From the NCBI RefSeq assembly GCF_025980345.1, contig NZ_JAPDUI010000002.1:1-64000 (forward strand): a stretch of DNA of 64,000 bases, in the 5' to 3' direction. Under the pieces are notes generated by a model. The model did not search any database. It saw only the letters and a list, made by a program, of their open reading frames with translations, and was not told the DNA's origin. The stretch comes from Arenimonas sp. GDDSR-1. Its GTDB lineage: Bacteria; Pseudomonadota; Gammaproteobacteria; Xanthomonadales; Xanthomonadaceae. The first letter of the stretch is position 1, and each line of letters starts with the position of its first letter. Positions 3,933 to 13,833 of this stretch are shown here, in pieces. Made by a program: the position numbers and the translations under genes.

Positions 3933-6512
3933 TCAGCGCAGCTGTTTCAGACGATACAAGGCTTCGAGCGCCTGCTTCGGCGTCAATTCATCCGGTTGCA
4001 GGGCGTCCACGGCATCGGCCAGCGCATTGTCGGTCACGAACAGGCCGAGCTGCGCGGGCTGCTCAAGCGCCTGCGCCTGCAGGTTCAAGGGCTGCTGCGG
4101 CTTGTTTTCCAGCTGGGCCAGCGCCTGTTTCGCACGGGTCAGCACCGGCCTGGGCAGACCGGCCAGCGAGGCCACCTGCAGACCGAAACTGCGGTTGGCC
4201 GGCCCGTCCTTCACCGCATGCATGAAGATCAAACGGTCGCCATGTTCCACCGCATCCAGATGCACGTTGCGGATGCCGGCGTGGGTTTCAGGAAGTGCGG
4301 TCAGTTCGAAATAATGGGTGGCGAACAGGCAGTAGGCGCGGTTGCCGTCACACAGGGCTTCCGCGCAGGCCTGCGCCAGTGCCAGACCGTCGTACGTCGA
4401 CGTGCCGCGTCCGATTTCATCCATCAGCACGAATGAACGGGGTCCGGCATTACGCAGGATGAAACTGGTTTCCGCCATTTCCACCATGAAGGTCGACTGG
4501 CCGCGCGCCAGATCATCGCCGGCACCGATGCGGGTCAGGATGCGGTCGATCGGGCCGAGCTGGGCGGACTCGGCCGGAACGAAACTGCCGATGTAAGCAA
4601 GCAGGATGATCAGCGCATTCTGCCGCATGTAGGTGGATTTACCGCCCATGTTCGGACCGGTGATCAGCAGCATGCGCTGCTCGCCATCGAGAATAAGATC
4701 ATTTGGTTCGAAAGCCTGCTCGCGGACCTGCTCCACCACGGGATGCCGGCCACGTCGGATGCGGATGCCATCGTCGTCCAGCAACTGCGGACGGCACCAG
4801 TTCAGGGCCTCGGCGCGCTCGGCGAAGGCTGCCAGCACATCACATTCGGCCAGGGCCTGGGCGCAGGCTTTCAGGCTCTGCAAATCGTCATTGAGCCGGT
4901 CGAGCAGCTGTTCATAGAGAAAGCGTTCGCGCGCCAGCGAACGTTCCCTCGCCGAAAGCACTTTGTCTTCGAAGGCTTTGAGTTCTTCGGTGATGAAACG
5001 CTCGGCGCCGGTCAATGTCTGGCGTCGGGTGTAGTGTGCCGGTGCTTTTTCGGCCTGGCCTTTGCTGATTTCGATGTAATAGCCATGCACGCGGTTGTAG
5101 CCGACCTTCAGCGTGGCAATGCCCGTTGCGGCTTTTTCACGCGCTTCCAGATCCACCAGAAACTGATCGGCATTGGTCGAAAGCACGCGCAGTTCGTCGA
5201 GTTCGGCATCGAAACCGCCGGCAAAGACGCCGCCATCCCGCAACAGGACCGCCGGTTGTTCCAGTAAGGCCGCCTGCAGGTGTGCTGCCAGTTCAGGATG
5301 CCGTCCCAGCGCGGCGCGCAACTCCCGCAGCCGGGGCGCTTCGGCCGGTTGCAGCACGGCTTCGATGTCGGGCAGACGCAGCAGTCCGTCGCGCAGGCCG
5401 CTGAGATCGCGCGGCCGTGCACTGCGCAGGGCAACACGGGTCAGCATCCGTTCCAGATCGCCGATGCCGCGGAACACGGCCCGAAGCGGCTCGGACCATT
5501 GACGGTCGAGAAGTTCGGCCACGGCCTCATGACGATGCCTGACGGTGTCGGCATTCCGCAAAGGACGGTGCAGCCAGCGCCGCAACAGGCGTCCGGCCAT
5601 TGGACTGCAGGTCGTATCGAGGACGCCCAGCAAGGTGTGCTGCAATTGACCATCGAAGCGCTCATCCAGCTCCAGATGCCGGCGGGTGGCGGCATTCATG
5701 GCGATGGCATCATCGCTTGCTTCCCATTGCAGCGAGCTCAGATGCGGCAGCCGCTGTTTCTGGGTTTCTTCCAGATACCCAAGCAAAGCCCCGGCGGCGG
5801 CGATCCCGGCGCTGTAAGAAGGCGTGTTTTCATCCAAGCCGAAACCGCTGAGGTCGGCGACCCCGAAAAACTGCAGAAGCTGCCGTGCGCTGGTTTCAGC
5901 ATCGAAATACCACACCGGCCGCCGGCGCAGGCCCTTGCTGCCGGCCAGAAGATTGGCGAGTTCATCGGAGTCCGGTATGAGGATTTCGGCGGGGTTCAGA
6001 CGCGCCAGTTCCGCCGTCAGTTGCTCGGCATCGCCGGCATAACTGAGCAGGAAGCGTCCTGCGGCAACATCGGCCCATGCCAATCCGAATCCCTGTTTGG
6101 TCCGGGAAACCGACAGCAGCAGTTGTTCACGCCGGTCGTCCAGAAGGGCTTCATCGGTCAGCGTTCCGGGCGTGATGACCCGGACCACTTTGCGTTCCAC
6201 CAGGCCCTTGGCCAGTGCCGGATCACCGATCTGCTCGCAGATGGCCACCGATTCACCGAGTGCGACCAGCCGGGCCAGATAGCCGTCGGCGGCATGGTAG
6301 GGCACGCCCGCCATCGGAATGGCGTTGCCGCCGCTCTGGCCGCGCTGGGTCAGGGTGATGTCGAGCAGACGCGCGGCCTTACGGGCATCGTCGTAAAACA
6401 GTTCATAGAAATCGCCCATGCGGAAAAACAGCAGCACATCGGGGTATTCGGCTTTGGCGCTGAAGAACTGCCGCATTAGCGGCGTGTGCTGGGATAAATC
6501 GTTCGAAGCCAT
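3933..6512 (-). CDS. mutS: DNA mismatch repair protein MutS
   Basis: [34 protein letters not shown]; Walker [35 protein letters not shown]. Confidence 0.98.
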
Positions 6513-9050: not shown

Positions 9051-10742
9051 CTAGAACTTCGACTTATCGAGGGGGCGTTCCCGGTGCATCAGCGTCCATT
9101 CGGCATGTTCGGCCAAGGCGGCCTCGCCCAGCGTACGCAGGATACGCCGCCGTTCCTCATCGGACCGGCTGCTGTCGAGCCGGCGTTTGGCGGCGTTGAA
9201 AATGCGGGCCATGAACCGGTACTGTTTGATCAGCTCTTTGTCGGCTTTCTTGTAAGCGTAGGCTTCATGCACCGCCGCCGTTACCGACAGCAGCCCCATG
9301 GTGGCGACCATCACGTTCTGCGCCAGGCCATCGATGGCGCGCGCGAATACCGCCAGAACCACGCTGATGCCGATGCCGATCCACAGGCAGGAAGCGGCCA
9401 GCCATTCATTGCGCCGGTGATGGCGGACGCGCTTTTCGGAAGTGGCCGAATAATACGCCAGCTGGCCGGGTGAATCCGAAGTGCCGATCCATTCGCGGAT
9501 GACCGTATCGATGCCATCCAATGAAGGATCCAGCGGTTTGAGCATGCCTTCCAGGCTGGCTGCACGCATCACATTGCGGATCCAGCCCAGCTCCACATCC
9601 TGCTTCTGCAGGAAATTGTCGTGGGCGAAAGCCGGCCGGCCGGTATCGACAATGCCGGCGCGGCGCCAATACGATTGCACGCGCAGTCCTTCAGCAAGGG
9701 CACGGTAATCGATGTACTGGCGATGCCACTCACGCCGTGTGGCAACGCTGTTGATGCCGATGCCGGCCAGGAAGAACAGCAGGAACAGATAGATCATCAC
9801 GTCCTTGGCCATGATGTCCGAGTACATGATGAAGGCATAGCCCATCAGGGCCGCAAGAACGTAGGTGATCAGCAGAATACGGCTGACCCGGCGCCGGTAG
9901 GTCGTCGCCAGCCAGTCGGCGCCGCCGAAGTAAACGCCGATAGGGCAGTCGGTTTTACCCAGGGATCCGGCTTCGAGGATTTCATCACGGTATTGCCGGC
10001 AATCATGATGGTATTCGACCTGTCGGCGGAACATGGTAGCGAAGGATTCCGGTATCCGTTCTGAAGGCTGGGCATCATCGCCCGAGGTCAGCCAACGGCC
10101 TTCGCCATCGAGGTCGGTTTCGCTGCTCTGGCGGCCGGCCGGAATGTGGAAAACCAATGATTCTTCATCGAGGCCCAGGTTTCCCGTGGCGGCTTGACGG
10201 CGGTCGACGGTCCCGGGCAGGGTGCCGTGCAGGTGGTATTCGACCACCTGCGCGGTTCCGCCGAAATGGCCGTTTTCGGAACCATCCCAGAGCGCCAGCA
10301 GGATATGGCAATGGCTGGAGGTGAACATGCCGGCATGGGCATACTGACGGTTGCGGGCATAGCCGCCATGACGGATATCATCCGGACTCCGTGCATCCTG
10401 CAATGCGAGCTCGAGGCAGGCGCATTGCTGCAGCTGCCGGTCGAATTCCGCCAGTTCTTCAGGGTCGTCGAAGTCACTCCGGTAGAGGACAGCCGGTACC
10501 GGCAGGGCGGCGATCACGCGGATGCCGCGTTCCAGCGCGATGCCGGCCACCAGCTGATCGGCGCCGGCCGCCAACGGGCAAAGCACCGTCAGCGGCAATT
10601 CGGGATAATCATGCTCCAGCAGATCGAACAACGCATGGATCTGTTTACGCAGGCGCGGTAATTCAGTGGCCCGCAGGTTACGGTGTCCGGTTACGCCAAT
10701 GACCAGGCCTGCCGTTTCAGCGGTTTGATGAGTTTGAGCCAT
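9051..10742 (-). CDS. SLOG-like (Rossmann) N-terminal domain fused to two 2TM hairpins (SLATT-like membrane effector)
   Basis: N-term VIGVTGHRNL, LAAGADQLVAGIALERGIRVIAALP, HCHILLALWDG..GGTAQVVEYH (LOG/DprA-like pattern). Four hydrophobic segments: RILLITYVLAALMGYAFIMY, VMIYLFLLFFLAGIGINSVA, WLAASCLWIGIGISVVLAVFA, NVMVATMGLLSVTAAVHEAYAY. C-term ALAEHAEWTLMHRERPL. Domain assignment by eye. Confidence 0.7.
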   Translation of the reverse strand: MAQTHQTAETAGLVIGVTGHRNLRATELPRLRKQIHALFDLLEHDYPELPLTVLCPLAAGADQLVAGIALERGIRVIAALPVPAVLYRSDFDDPEELAEFDRQLQQCACLELALQDARSPDDIRHGGYARNRQYAHAGMFTSSHCHILLALWDGSENGHFGGTAQVVEYHLHGTLPGTVDRRQAATGNLGLDEESLVFHIPAGRQSSETDLDGEGRWLTSGDDAQPSERIPESFATMFRRQVEYHHDCRQYRDEILEAGSLGKTDCPIGVYFGGADWLATTYRRRVSRILLITYVLAALMGYAFIMYSDIMAKDVMIYLFLLFFLAGIGINSVATRREWHRQYIDYRALAEGLRVQSYWRRAGIVDTGRPAFAHDNFLQKQDVELGWIRNVMRAASLEGMLKPLDPSLDGIDTVIREWIGTSDSPGQLAYYSATSEKRVRHHRRNEWLAASCLWIGIGISVVLAVFARAIDGLAQNVMVATMGLLSVTAAVHEAYAYKKADKELIKQYRFMARIFNAAKRRLDSSRSDEERRRILRTLGEAALAEHAEWTLMHRERPLDKSKF

Positions 10743-10750
10743 GGTCGCAA

Positions 10751-11161
10751 TTACTTGTTAATGACCCTGGGGTCGCAACTCAGGAGCTCGCCGGTCTGCT
10801 TGTTCCTGAGGTTTATTTGGTAGTAAACATCGGCCGGACCGGTGTTTGCATTGAATATGTTGAGTACATTGCCGTTCCCGCCAGCCGCCTCCCTGAGCTG
10901 ATCCGAACCTGGACCCTTGAATGAGGTCGGTTCGAAGACCAGGTCGTCGCCGTACAACACTTCGACCTGGATCTTCTTGCCGCCTGTTTTTTGCATGACC
11001 TCGACGTTCCCGTACCCATCCGTACCGCCGCTGAATTGGCAGCCGTTGATATTAAGTCCGACTTTGAAGTCCGGCACATTGCCATCCTGTGCGGATAGGC
11101 AGCTTGACCCAGCAATCATCGCCAACGCAAGGCCATGAAGATGAATTTGACTGAGGCGCAT
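10751..11161 (-). CDS. Small secreted protein of unknown family (signal peptide; paralogue of the adjacent ORF)
   Basis: MRLSQIHLHGLALAMIAGSSCLSAQ signal peptide. Shares SGGxxGxGNVE, KI/KKIxV, ADVxY and L(S)CDPR(V/I)(I/V)N motifs with 11251-11589. Tight operon spacing. Confidence 0.75.
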   Translation of the reverse strand: MRLSQIHLHGLALAMIAGSSCLSAQDGNVPDFKVGLNINGCQFSGGTDGYGNVEVMQKTGGKKIQVEVLYGDDLVFEPTSFKGPGSDQLREAAGGNGNVLNIFNANTGPADVYYQINLRNKQTGELLSCDPRVINK

Positions 11162-11250
11162 GTGATGTCCTTTGGATGATGAACGGCGTCGAGGTTCTGG
11201 GATGGCTTGGAATGGGCGGATTGCCGATGGACGGTCCGCGCCGTCATACT

Positions 11251-11589
11251 TTATTGATTGACAATCCTCGGGTCACAAAGCACATCGGGACCGCCGCTGG
11301 AGTCGCCGACGATGACCGTATATTTGACGTCGGCCGATGTTTGGCAATTGTCGTCGATATCGACCCGGCGCTCGTTGCCCTTGATGTCGAAGCTGAAATT
11401 TTCCTGTCCTGAACCCTGGAACTGGACGTCCTTGATGAAGTAGTTTGCGGCGGCATTCAGACTGACATGGATTTTCGAGGGTCCCTGGCCGACTGAGTTT
11501 TCGACATTGCCGTTGCCTTTGTTGCCACCGGAATACTGGTAGTTGCCGTTCTGTACGGATAATGAAACCTGCTGGTCTGAGTTGGGCAT
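11251..11589 (-). CDS. Small protein of unknown family, no signal peptide (paralogue of 10751-11161)
   Basis: MPNSDQQVSLSVQNGNYQYSGGNKGNGNVE...ADVKYTVIVGDSSGGPDVLCDPRIVNQ; start lies 2 nt beyond the stop of the TIR gene. Confidence 0.75.
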   Translation of the reverse strand: MPNSDQQVSLSVQNGNYQYSGGNKGNGNVENSVGQGPSKIHVSLNAAANYFIKDVQFQGSGQENFSFDIKGNERRVDIDDNCQTSADVKYTVIVGDSSGGPDVLCDPRIVNQ

Positions 11590-11590
11590 C

Positions 11591-13702
11591 TTAGTTCTCC
11601 TTGGAGGGGTTGATGGGTGAAGCGGATGAAACCAAAAATCCGGTCCCGCCAGGGTCCGGAGCGAAACGGGGGTCTTTGTAGCCGGCTTTCGACAATGCGG
11701 ATTCGGTTTCTAAAGCTTTTGCGGCATCGCCAAGATTGATTGCCAGTAGACGGCGTACAGGACTGAAATCAAAAATCCGTATGGTCTGGTTGTCCAGATG
11801 CTTGGCGGTCTCGCCCCAGGTATCCTTCGCCAGGCCGGCTTTGCCATCTGCCATCTGCGCAGAACCAAGAATCAGGGCCGATTTCGCCAGTTCCGCGACA
11901 AGCAGAGGGGATTGCTCGGATTCTTTAAGCAGAACGGCAATCTGGTTGTGGCTCATTTCGGCAGATGCGAGGGCTTCCGCGGTTTTGCCGTTCTGGAGTT
12001 TACGCAGCGCTTTTTCACGATGCATTCCGGAAAGTATGGTTTTATTTTTGGTGTTTGATGGATCCCTTTCAATCAGGGTATTTAATCGGCTGATCAAACC
12101 ATCCAGTTCAGCATCATGACTGCTCGACCAGCCACCACGGGGGATCATCGACAGACGTAGCAATTCGGCCTTGTGCAGCACCTGAAGCCAGTCGGCATTG
12201 TTCGGATCCTTCTGTGTCAGCATCGAAAGGATTCTCAGGGATTCCGCATTGAGGCGCTTTGCAGAATCGACATCGCCGATATAGAGTTTCGCATCCGTCT
12301 GGAATGTCAGGTTGGAGGCAAAAGTGAAAGTTGCACGCGCATTTTCATCTTTCAGGTAAATGGGTCGGAGCAGTTTCGCGATTTCGGTAAAGGCCTCATC
12401 GCTTCCGGCGAGATCGCCAAGGTCCATCTTGCTCGAACCGATCCAGGACCAGGCCTCGGCAAGGCTGTAGGCGAGTTCGACATCTTCTGGATTCTTTTTC
12501 AGCTCTTCGGCATTGATGTCGCGGCTTCGGATGAAATTATCGAGTGCTTCACGTGTATTTCCGCGCGCACGCGCCAGGCTGCCGAGATTGGAATACGCGT
12601 AGGACAGCTCCATGTTGTAGACCGAGTTGCCTGGGTCGCGTGCGAGCAGCTCGCGGCTATGCTGCATGTATTTGTTGAATGCATTTTCCGCGAGTTTCAG
12701 GTCGCCCCGTTCCCAGCCGACCGCGCCGACCCAGAATTCGGCCTGGCCGAGTTCGAACAGATTGTCATTGCTTTTCGGGTCGGCTTTGTAAAGGGCCTGC
12801 ATTTGTTTAAGCGATTCCTCGAAGGCGGTCAGGGCAGCTTTCAGATCGCCTTTCGATTTGCGGACTTCGCCGATCTGGTGCAGGGCCTTGCCGCGCTCAC
12901 GCAGTTCCTTGGGGGTGCCTCGGTCGCCGAGCGTTGCGAAATAATTCATGGCCTGGTCGCCGATGGAATCCAGGATTTCGAGCTTGCCGATGGGCTCAAG
13001 CCGTTCACGCAGGTCGCCGAGCATGAAGCCGATCAGGTTCTCGGCCTGGCTGCGGCGTATTTCCGATTCGCGTTTGGCATTCAAGGCGTAGACTGCCAGG
13101 CCGATGGTCAGTACCGAGATGAAGATCGCGCCGGCGGCCACGATCGACCAGAATCGGGCCTGTCGCTGGGCATCCCGGCGTTTGAGGTCATCAACGCCGA
13201 CATCGAGCAGGCCTGCCGCGATTTTAAGCATCGCATTGCGTTTTCCATCCCCGCCCGGGGCGGCATCGGCGGCCAGAGGCTCATGAATGATGTTGCCGTT
13301 TTCATCCTGCAGAATGGCCGATGGAAATGCGCAGTCCGATGCGTGCGGATCCGGACTGCCGGCGACCAGCAGACAGAAAATGCGGTGACCCCGGCCGGAG
13401 GCCCGGAAGCGGCGGATTTCCTCATTGACCCAATGCGAGGCGCGTGCCGCTGGGGAGCAGATCACAATTAGCGCATCCGAGTCATCCATTGCTTTGCGGA
13501 TCGATTCGGAAAGGTCGCCGCCGGAAGCCAGTTCATCGCGGTCACGGAACACCGGAAACAGGCGGGCGGGGAGTTCAGGTTTGCTCTGGCGAAGCGATTT
13601 CGGCAGCCGGTAACCTTCCAGCGCACGCTGAAGCCAGCGCGCCCAGGCCTCGTCGCTGTGGCTGTAACTGATGAATGCCCTGTAATGCCGTTGAACCGCC
13701 AT
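11591..13702 (-). CDS. TIR domain - transmembrane - TPR-repeat protein
   Basis: TIR: RAFISYSHSDEAWARWLQRALE, PVFRDRDELASGGDLSESIRKAMDDSDALIVICSPAARASHWVNEEI. TM: FWSIVAAGAIFISVLTIGLAVYAL. Then TPR-like helices (ALHQIGEVRKSKGDLKAALTAFEESLKQ, YSNLGSLARARGNTREALDNFIRS). Confidence 0.88.
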   Translation of the reverse strand: MAVQRHYRAFISYSHSDEAWARWLQRALEGYRLPKSLRQSKPELPARLFPVFRDRDELASGGDLSESIRKAMDDSDALIVICSPAARASHWVNEEIRRFRASGRGHRIFCLLVAGSPDPHASDCAFPSAILQDENGNIIHEPLAADAAPGGDGKRNAMLKIAAGLLDVGVDDLKRRDAQRQARFWSIVAAGAIFISVLTIGLAVYALNAKRESEIRRSQAENLIGFMLGDLRERLEPIGKLEILDSIGDQAMNYFATLGDRGTPKELRERGKALHQIGEVRKSKGDLKAALTAFEESLKQMQALYKADPKSNDNLFELGQAEFWVGAVGWERGDLKLAENAFNKYMQHSRELLARDPGNSVYNMELSYAYSNLGSLARARGNTREALDNFIRSRDINAEELKKNPEDVELAYSLAEAWSWIGSSKMDLGDLAGSDEAFTEIAKLLRPIYLKDENARATFTFASNLTFQTDAKLYIGDVDSAKRLNAESLRILSMLTQKDPNNADWLQVLHKAELLRLSMIPRGGWSSSHDAELDGLISRLNTLIERDPSNTKNKTILSGMHREKALRKLQNGKTAEALASAEMSHNQIAVLLKESEQSPLLVAELAKSALILGSAQMADGKAGLAKDTWGETAKHLDNQTIRIFDFSPVRRLLAINLGDAAKALETESALSKAGYKDPRFAPDPGGTGFLVSSASPINPSKEN

Positions 13703-13796: not shown

Positions 13797-13824
13797 TTGA
13801 CAGGCCGTAATTTGTTAGTAGTAT
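13797..13824 (+). promoter_or_regulatory. Predicted sigma70 promoter of lexA
   Basis: TTGACA (13797-13802), 16-nt spacer, TAGTAT (13819-13824). Confidence 0.65.
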
Positions 13825-13833
13825 TACTACTAA
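13815..13833. promoter_or_regulatory. LexA operator (SOS box)
   Basis: Perfect 19-bp palindrome TTAGTAGTATTACTACTAA; matches the TTAG-N6-TACTA motif reported for Xylella/Xanthomonas LexA; directly upstream of lexA. Confidence 0.9.

Follow-up and report, generated by a model that had tools for sequence, protein, structure and literature searches.

DP-EP-fold small proteins encoded beside transmembrane TPR receptors as their candidate partners in Arenimonas and other gammaproteobacteria

The window, which is the whole 64,000-nucleotide stretch of Arenimonas sp. GDDSR-1 DNA analysed here (contig C79 of a 2.04 Mb genome that is 91% complete), carries an operon of four genes on a single strand. 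In coding-strand order these are a TIR-TPR receptor gene, two small genes termed A and B, and a SLOG gene, with spacings of 1, 89 and 8 bp, the receptor stop codon ending 1 bp ahead of the A start codon. The genes around the operon are mutS, cinA, lexA and recA. The main features are as follows:

11591-13702, (-) strand: TIR-TM-TPR receptor of 703 aa (Pfam TIR_2 1.2e-15, ThsB_TIR 3.3e-9, TPR)
11251-11589, (-) strand: A, a 112-aa beta-sandwich protein with C-terminal CDPRIVNQ and no signal peptide (ORF and AF2 model)
10751-11161, (-) strand: B, a 136-aa exported paralogue of A (BLASTP against A; exported relatives)
11087-11161, (-) strand: Sec-type signal peptide of B, residues 1-25, MRLSQIHLHGLALAMIAGSSCLSAQ (read by eye)
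9051-10742, (-) strand: 563-aa protein with a SLOG domain and SLATT-like membrane segments (SLATT 1.8e-8, below cut-off; AF2/Foldseek)
13815-13833: LexA-type operator TTAGTAGTATTACTACTAA, between the divergent lexA and receptor genes and immediately in front of lexA

A LexA-type box is also found upstream of the receptor at loci L021/L077 and L081, and such an operator is common only to loci that neighbour lexA or carry this box upstream. We do not claim SOS control of the receptor, since the operator in the window belongs to the lexA promoter and is not clearly the receptor's. The same genome encodes a third copy of the small protein on contig C58, after another TIR-TPR receptor.

A preliminary description had presented A and B as members of one family, one exported and one not, placed between a TIR receptor and a SLOG membrane protein, and all three points held up. 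The two proteins are 31% identical over 95 residues (BLASTP, E 2e-12) and have in common the motifs SGGxxGxGNVE, KI/KKIxV, ADVxY and CDPR(I/V)(V/I)N; the same motifs are kept in relatives from other genomes, so their sharing by A and B is not due to chance. Read by eye, the N-terminus of B is a Sec-type leader, which A lacks, and the near relatives of B (L021, L022, L023, L080, L081) carry leaders as well. The L021 locus also encodes an orthologue of A that is 92.9% identical. In the small-protein tree the exported copies form two separate lineages, the clade of B and a group comprising L155, L157 and L159, and the majority of the small proteins, A among them, have no signal peptide. The members of the second exported lineage (L155, L157, L159) are cysteine-rich and are encoded beside TIR-TPR and SLOG genes. 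The split of copies between compartments is a local feature of the genus to which the window belongs.

Single-sequence searches with A or B of the PDB, plasmids, NCBIfam and PADLOC returned nothing usable. With a two-sequence profile of A and B, 15 of 300 genomes from the same order held a relative. Once the profile had been enlarged, relatives occurred in 62 of 397 genomes sampled from the same family, in 35 of 240 from the order and in 6 of 399 from the phylum, and four of these last come from different families within the class. A profile built on the first 15 relatives and run against 369 class-level genomes had no match beyond the order; the 51-row profile did reach beyond it. The PF08985 model matched neither in 274 genomes nor in the controls, which makes that search uninformative.

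We then considered the fold of the family. The AF2 model of A (mean pLDDT 91) is a beta-sandwich, as the preliminary description had expected, and in a Foldseek search of the PDB its first 12 matches were all twelve chains of SO1698 (E 5.5e-7 to 3.6e-4), whose beta-sandwich fold this model, made for A, reproduces. The next-best and weaker fold matches were the PixA inclusion body protein and MakD (PDB 4lzk, 6tct), and matches to viral structures were set aside as generic beta-sandwiches. SO1698 of Shewanella oneidensis is the self-cleaving type protein of DP-EP (PF08985/DUF1888; PDB 3n55, 3njf-3njn), a family with, to our knowledge, one studied member and no known role. The 51-row profile (A4) aligned with almost the whole of SO1698 (E 3.4e-4), and in a small-set BLAST search SO1698 aligned over its full length, at 30% identity, with L166 and L163 (E 6e-11 and 1.5e-10). 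Neither A nor B reached a Pfam, NCBIfam or PADLOC cut-off: PF08985 matched B with E 0.028 at 15.2 bits, short of the cut-off of 25, and gave no match to A. Receptor-adjacent relatives at L163, L164, L153 and L154 do pass the Pfam DP-EP cut-off. A and B resemble SO1698 in their all-beta fold (for A, Foldseek E 5.5e-7, TM 0.74) and in the C-terminal DPxIxN motif of their family, and differ from DP-EP in scoring below the Pfam cut-off, in having Asn in place of Asp37 and, for B, in being exported. We therefore place them in the DP-EP superfamily, as divergent members that lie outside the Pfam family as defined. The earlier view that they belong to no recognised family is thus correct with respect to Pfam cut-offs and is superseded by the fold and C-terminal motif; no HMM search assigned either to a well-characterised unrelated family, the nearest being the poorly understood DP-EP.

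The kinship with SO1698 draws attention to the Asp-Pro dipeptide, which was located in both genes by alignment:

11269-11274, (-) strand: Asp106-Pro107 codons of A, equivalent to Asp116-Pro117 of SO1698 (profile alignments with SO1698)
10769-10774, (-) strand: Asp130-Pro131 codons of B, at the position of the bond cleaved in SO1698 (alignment)

In SO1698, Asp116-Pro117 is the scissile bond and Asp37 is required for cleavage, a picture that draws on PDB titles and chain lengths; Lys98 links to Asp116. The solved chains comprise 111-114 residues in the wild type and in Y26F, K98A, P115A and Q118A, and 120-122 in D37A, 119 in S114A and 119-122 in D116A and P117A, so the residues visible suggest that the wild type is cleaved and that D37A, S114A, D116A and P117A are uncut. 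A self-cleaving sensor or covalent tag is a minor possibility: the small protein would cut its own Asp-Pro bond as SO1698 does, perhaps in response to acid or binding, and the receptor would be switched by the cut, by the freed C-terminal peptide or by a reactive Asp intermediate. The fold match of A, the SO1698 chain lengths and the retention of Asp-Pro in 90 of 92 aligned rows despite great divergence elsewhere (the exceptions being the truncated L167, and L168, without Asp-Pro) all argue in its favour, as does the precedent of FrpC, in which Asp-Pro self-processing is established to yield a reactive anhydride (PMC7846742). Against it, the position of Asp37 holds Asn in both A (Asn28) and B (Asn52) and Asp in few family members, that of S114 is Leu in A (Ser in B), and that of Lys98 is Tyr in B (Lys89 in A, and Lys in 11 of the 92 rows). 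Moreover, the Asn that follows the dipeptide is conserved almost equally well (86 of 92 rows), so DPxxxN may be structural. Because Asp37 aligns with Asn in both proteins, self-cleavage of A and B, judged from their sequences, is doubtful. A bolder version, in which a self-processing or covalently reactive Asp-Pro protein is the built-in ligand of a widespread gammaproteobacterial receptor class, seems to us quite improbable; cleavage of the partner, or its cross-linking to the TPR module, would then act as a complement-like switch that activates TIR, STAND-transcription or kinase outputs.

The genomic neighbourhood of the family points to another reading, that A and B are dedicated partners, either regulatory ligands or co-receptors, of the transmembrane receptor encoded upstream, to which we assign a probability of about two in three. 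The small gene adjoins a membrane-TPR receptor gene in 78 of 82 loci (77 of 81 distinct ones, since L021 and L077 are one contig); the 78 comprise 75 identified by script as having a same-strand receptor just upstream, together with L085, where a receptor fragment lies at the contig edge, and L156 and L160, where the small gene is just upstream of the receptor. As the query of the family search was the small protein alone, this adjacency is independent of the query. The association is reciprocal, with 12 of 13 TPR-module matches in 16 genomes having an adjacent DP protein and the exception (L184) being a distant kinase-TPR beside a sigma-factor-like gene. ATGA overlaps between small gene and receptor are frequent, and the relatives that belong to DP-EP at the Pfam level (L163, L164, L153, L154) fill the same receptor-adjacent slot. 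The four exceptions are the degraded L087 and the three loci of one subfamily, L032, L103 and L143; these three, which have no receptor, count against the partner reading. The genes of this subfamily (MADPVGGII...) lie at L032 7733-8119, L103 4943-5332 and L143 1503-1883, and at L032 and L103 the DP-bearing gene comes after a TonB-dependent receptor-like gene. We found no description of a partnership of DP-EP with TM-TPR receptors in searches mostly confined to non-subscription literature.

These loci also bear on the relationships proposed earlier for the pair, in which a ligand or decoy, a regulator and a toxin/immunity couple had all been suggested. A link of the ligand/decoy or regulator kind to the TIR-TPR receptor is favoured by the adjacency. 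That A opposes B across the membrane as a toxin/immunity or decoy pair is very unlikely: tandem paralogues in different compartments, and tandem copies at L026, L072, L073, L078, L079 and L145, would suit it, but a lone small gene, with or without a leader, is the rule among the loci and a pair is never required; what is conserved is the association of the small gene with the receptor, not of A with B, and no toxin-like family was matched in Pfam, NCBIfam or PADLOC. At L026, L073 and L079 one TIR receptor is followed by three tandem small genes, and L183 has two very divergent tandem partners (4639-5151 and 5492-5980, FYWDPQIMNDG) after a TPR receptor in a 923-aa frame, near the detection limit of the profile. 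A chaperone-like or structural role, in which the small proteins only fold or anchor the receptor and take no part in signalling, is also unlikely: the near-constant adjacency and frequent translational coupling suit an assembly factor, but tandem duplication, fast partner divergence and export in two lineages better suit specificity or sensing.

The receptors share one architecture, which in the window comprises the following parts:

13358-13675, (-) strand: TIR domain, residues 10-115, bearing the TIR-NADase motif SxxW..E (Pfam and motif)
13091-13147, (-) strand: single transmembrane helix, residues 186-204, with N-in charge bias
11624-13090, (-) strand: TPR module, predicted periplasmic, common to all receptor types

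The part before the membrane helix is a TIR domain in 36 loci, a winged helix with nSTAND1 in 32 (in one of which the winged helix was not seen) and a Ser/Thr kinase in 9, the classes having been checked by Pfam on examples (nSTAND1, Trans_reg_C, Pkinase, TIR_2). The Ser/Thr kinase-TM-TPR receptors with DP-EP-type partners are those of L031, L149-L151, L153, L154, L158, L161 and L168. In nearly every receptor a single hydrophobic segment, weak in a few, lies immediately N-terminal of the TPR module, with positive charge higher on its N side. Since TIR, kinase and DNA-binding domains are expected in the cytoplasm, the TPR module would lie in the periplasm, a location that the leaderless majority of small proteins does not fit unless they have another export route or make a cytoplasmic contact. 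The TPR tree requires 2 changes of output class, which is the minimum, and the small-protein tree, short and poorly resolved as it is, agrees with it, requiring six against about 35 in shuffles. The distance matrices of receptors and small proteins correlate with r 0.67 overall and 0.81 among TIR loci, with 0 of 2000 permutations as high, an agreement for which the shared descent of linked genes can partly account.

The TIR branch of these receptors offers the clearest view of a possible output. A CSP...W..E motif is present in 36 of 36 TIR receptors, and the window receptor carries the catalytic Glu motif of TIR NADases as CSPAARASHWVNEEI. A SLOG protein is encoded in 20 loci, exclusively with TIR receptors. 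The AF2 model of the SLOG protein matches DprA and LOG folds in Foldseek, modestly (best E 2.8e-3), and the ThsA SLOG domain 7uxs with E 0.16 and probability 0.90; its SLATT match (1.8e-8) is below cut-off. This SLOG-SLATT protein is probably the effector of the TIR product. In Thoeris, ThsB proteins produce signalling nucleotides and cyclic ADP-ribose isomers activate the SLOG-bearing ThsA (PMC11204291). The operon resembles Thoeris, which pairs a ThsB TIR with a ThsA SLOG or TM-macro effector, in encoding a catalytic-motif TIR with a SLOG-containing effector and in the ThsB_TIR Pfam match of its receptor, and by this analogy it would work in a Thoeris-like manner. It differs in that its TIR domain forms one protein with a membrane helix and a TPR module, its SLOG protein has SLATT-like membrane segments and not SIR2, and DP-EP-fold partners are added; Thoeris models applied to the window gave 30.3 bits for ThcB4 against a cut-off of 220, 7e-5 for the PADLOC ThsB and no ThsA match. 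In SLATT/SLOG conflict systems, as described by Burroughs, Aravind and colleagues, a two-helix SLATT membrane effector is tied to nucleotide-signalling enzymes (PMC7159879). A SLATT-like putative membrane effector is common to these and to the window, where, in contrast, a single protein combines SLOG with the SLATT-like segments and is linked to a TM-TPR receptor.

Taken as dedicated partners of the receptor, A and B would act on a protein whose output domain is cytoplasmic and whose C-terminal TPR module, beyond a single membrane helix, is predicted to lie in the periplasm; the output domain is swapped among loci and the TPR module and DP-EP-fold partner remain paired. Exported B may bind the TPR module in the periplasm and so govern how active the TIR enzyme is. 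The product of that enzyme would act on the neighbouring SLOG-SLATT membrane protein, as TIR and SLOG do in Thoeris, with growth arrest, death or a stress response as the outcome. Its leaderless sister A may regulate this receptor from the cytoplasm, or may be released by another route. The analysis itself establishes the homology, the fold, the operon, the reciprocal adjacency, the agreement of the trees, the catalytic TIR motif and the SLOG fold. Physical binding of partner and receptor, the direction of control, the periplasmic position of the TPR module, signalling to the SLOG-SLATT protein and a role in defence are inferred, and the absence of phage-defence context around the operon speaks against the last of these.

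The new result is the genomic relation between receptor and partner. A DP-EP-fold family encoded beside TM-TPR receptors with three interchangeable outputs gives DP-EP a testable job, and it suggests a modular design of signalling in which sensor and partner are fixed and TIR, STAND-transcription or kinase outputs are exchanged. In its TIR form, this design would give Thoeris-like TIR-SLOG signalling, in which the cue that is sensed is a central question, an input that spans the membrane.
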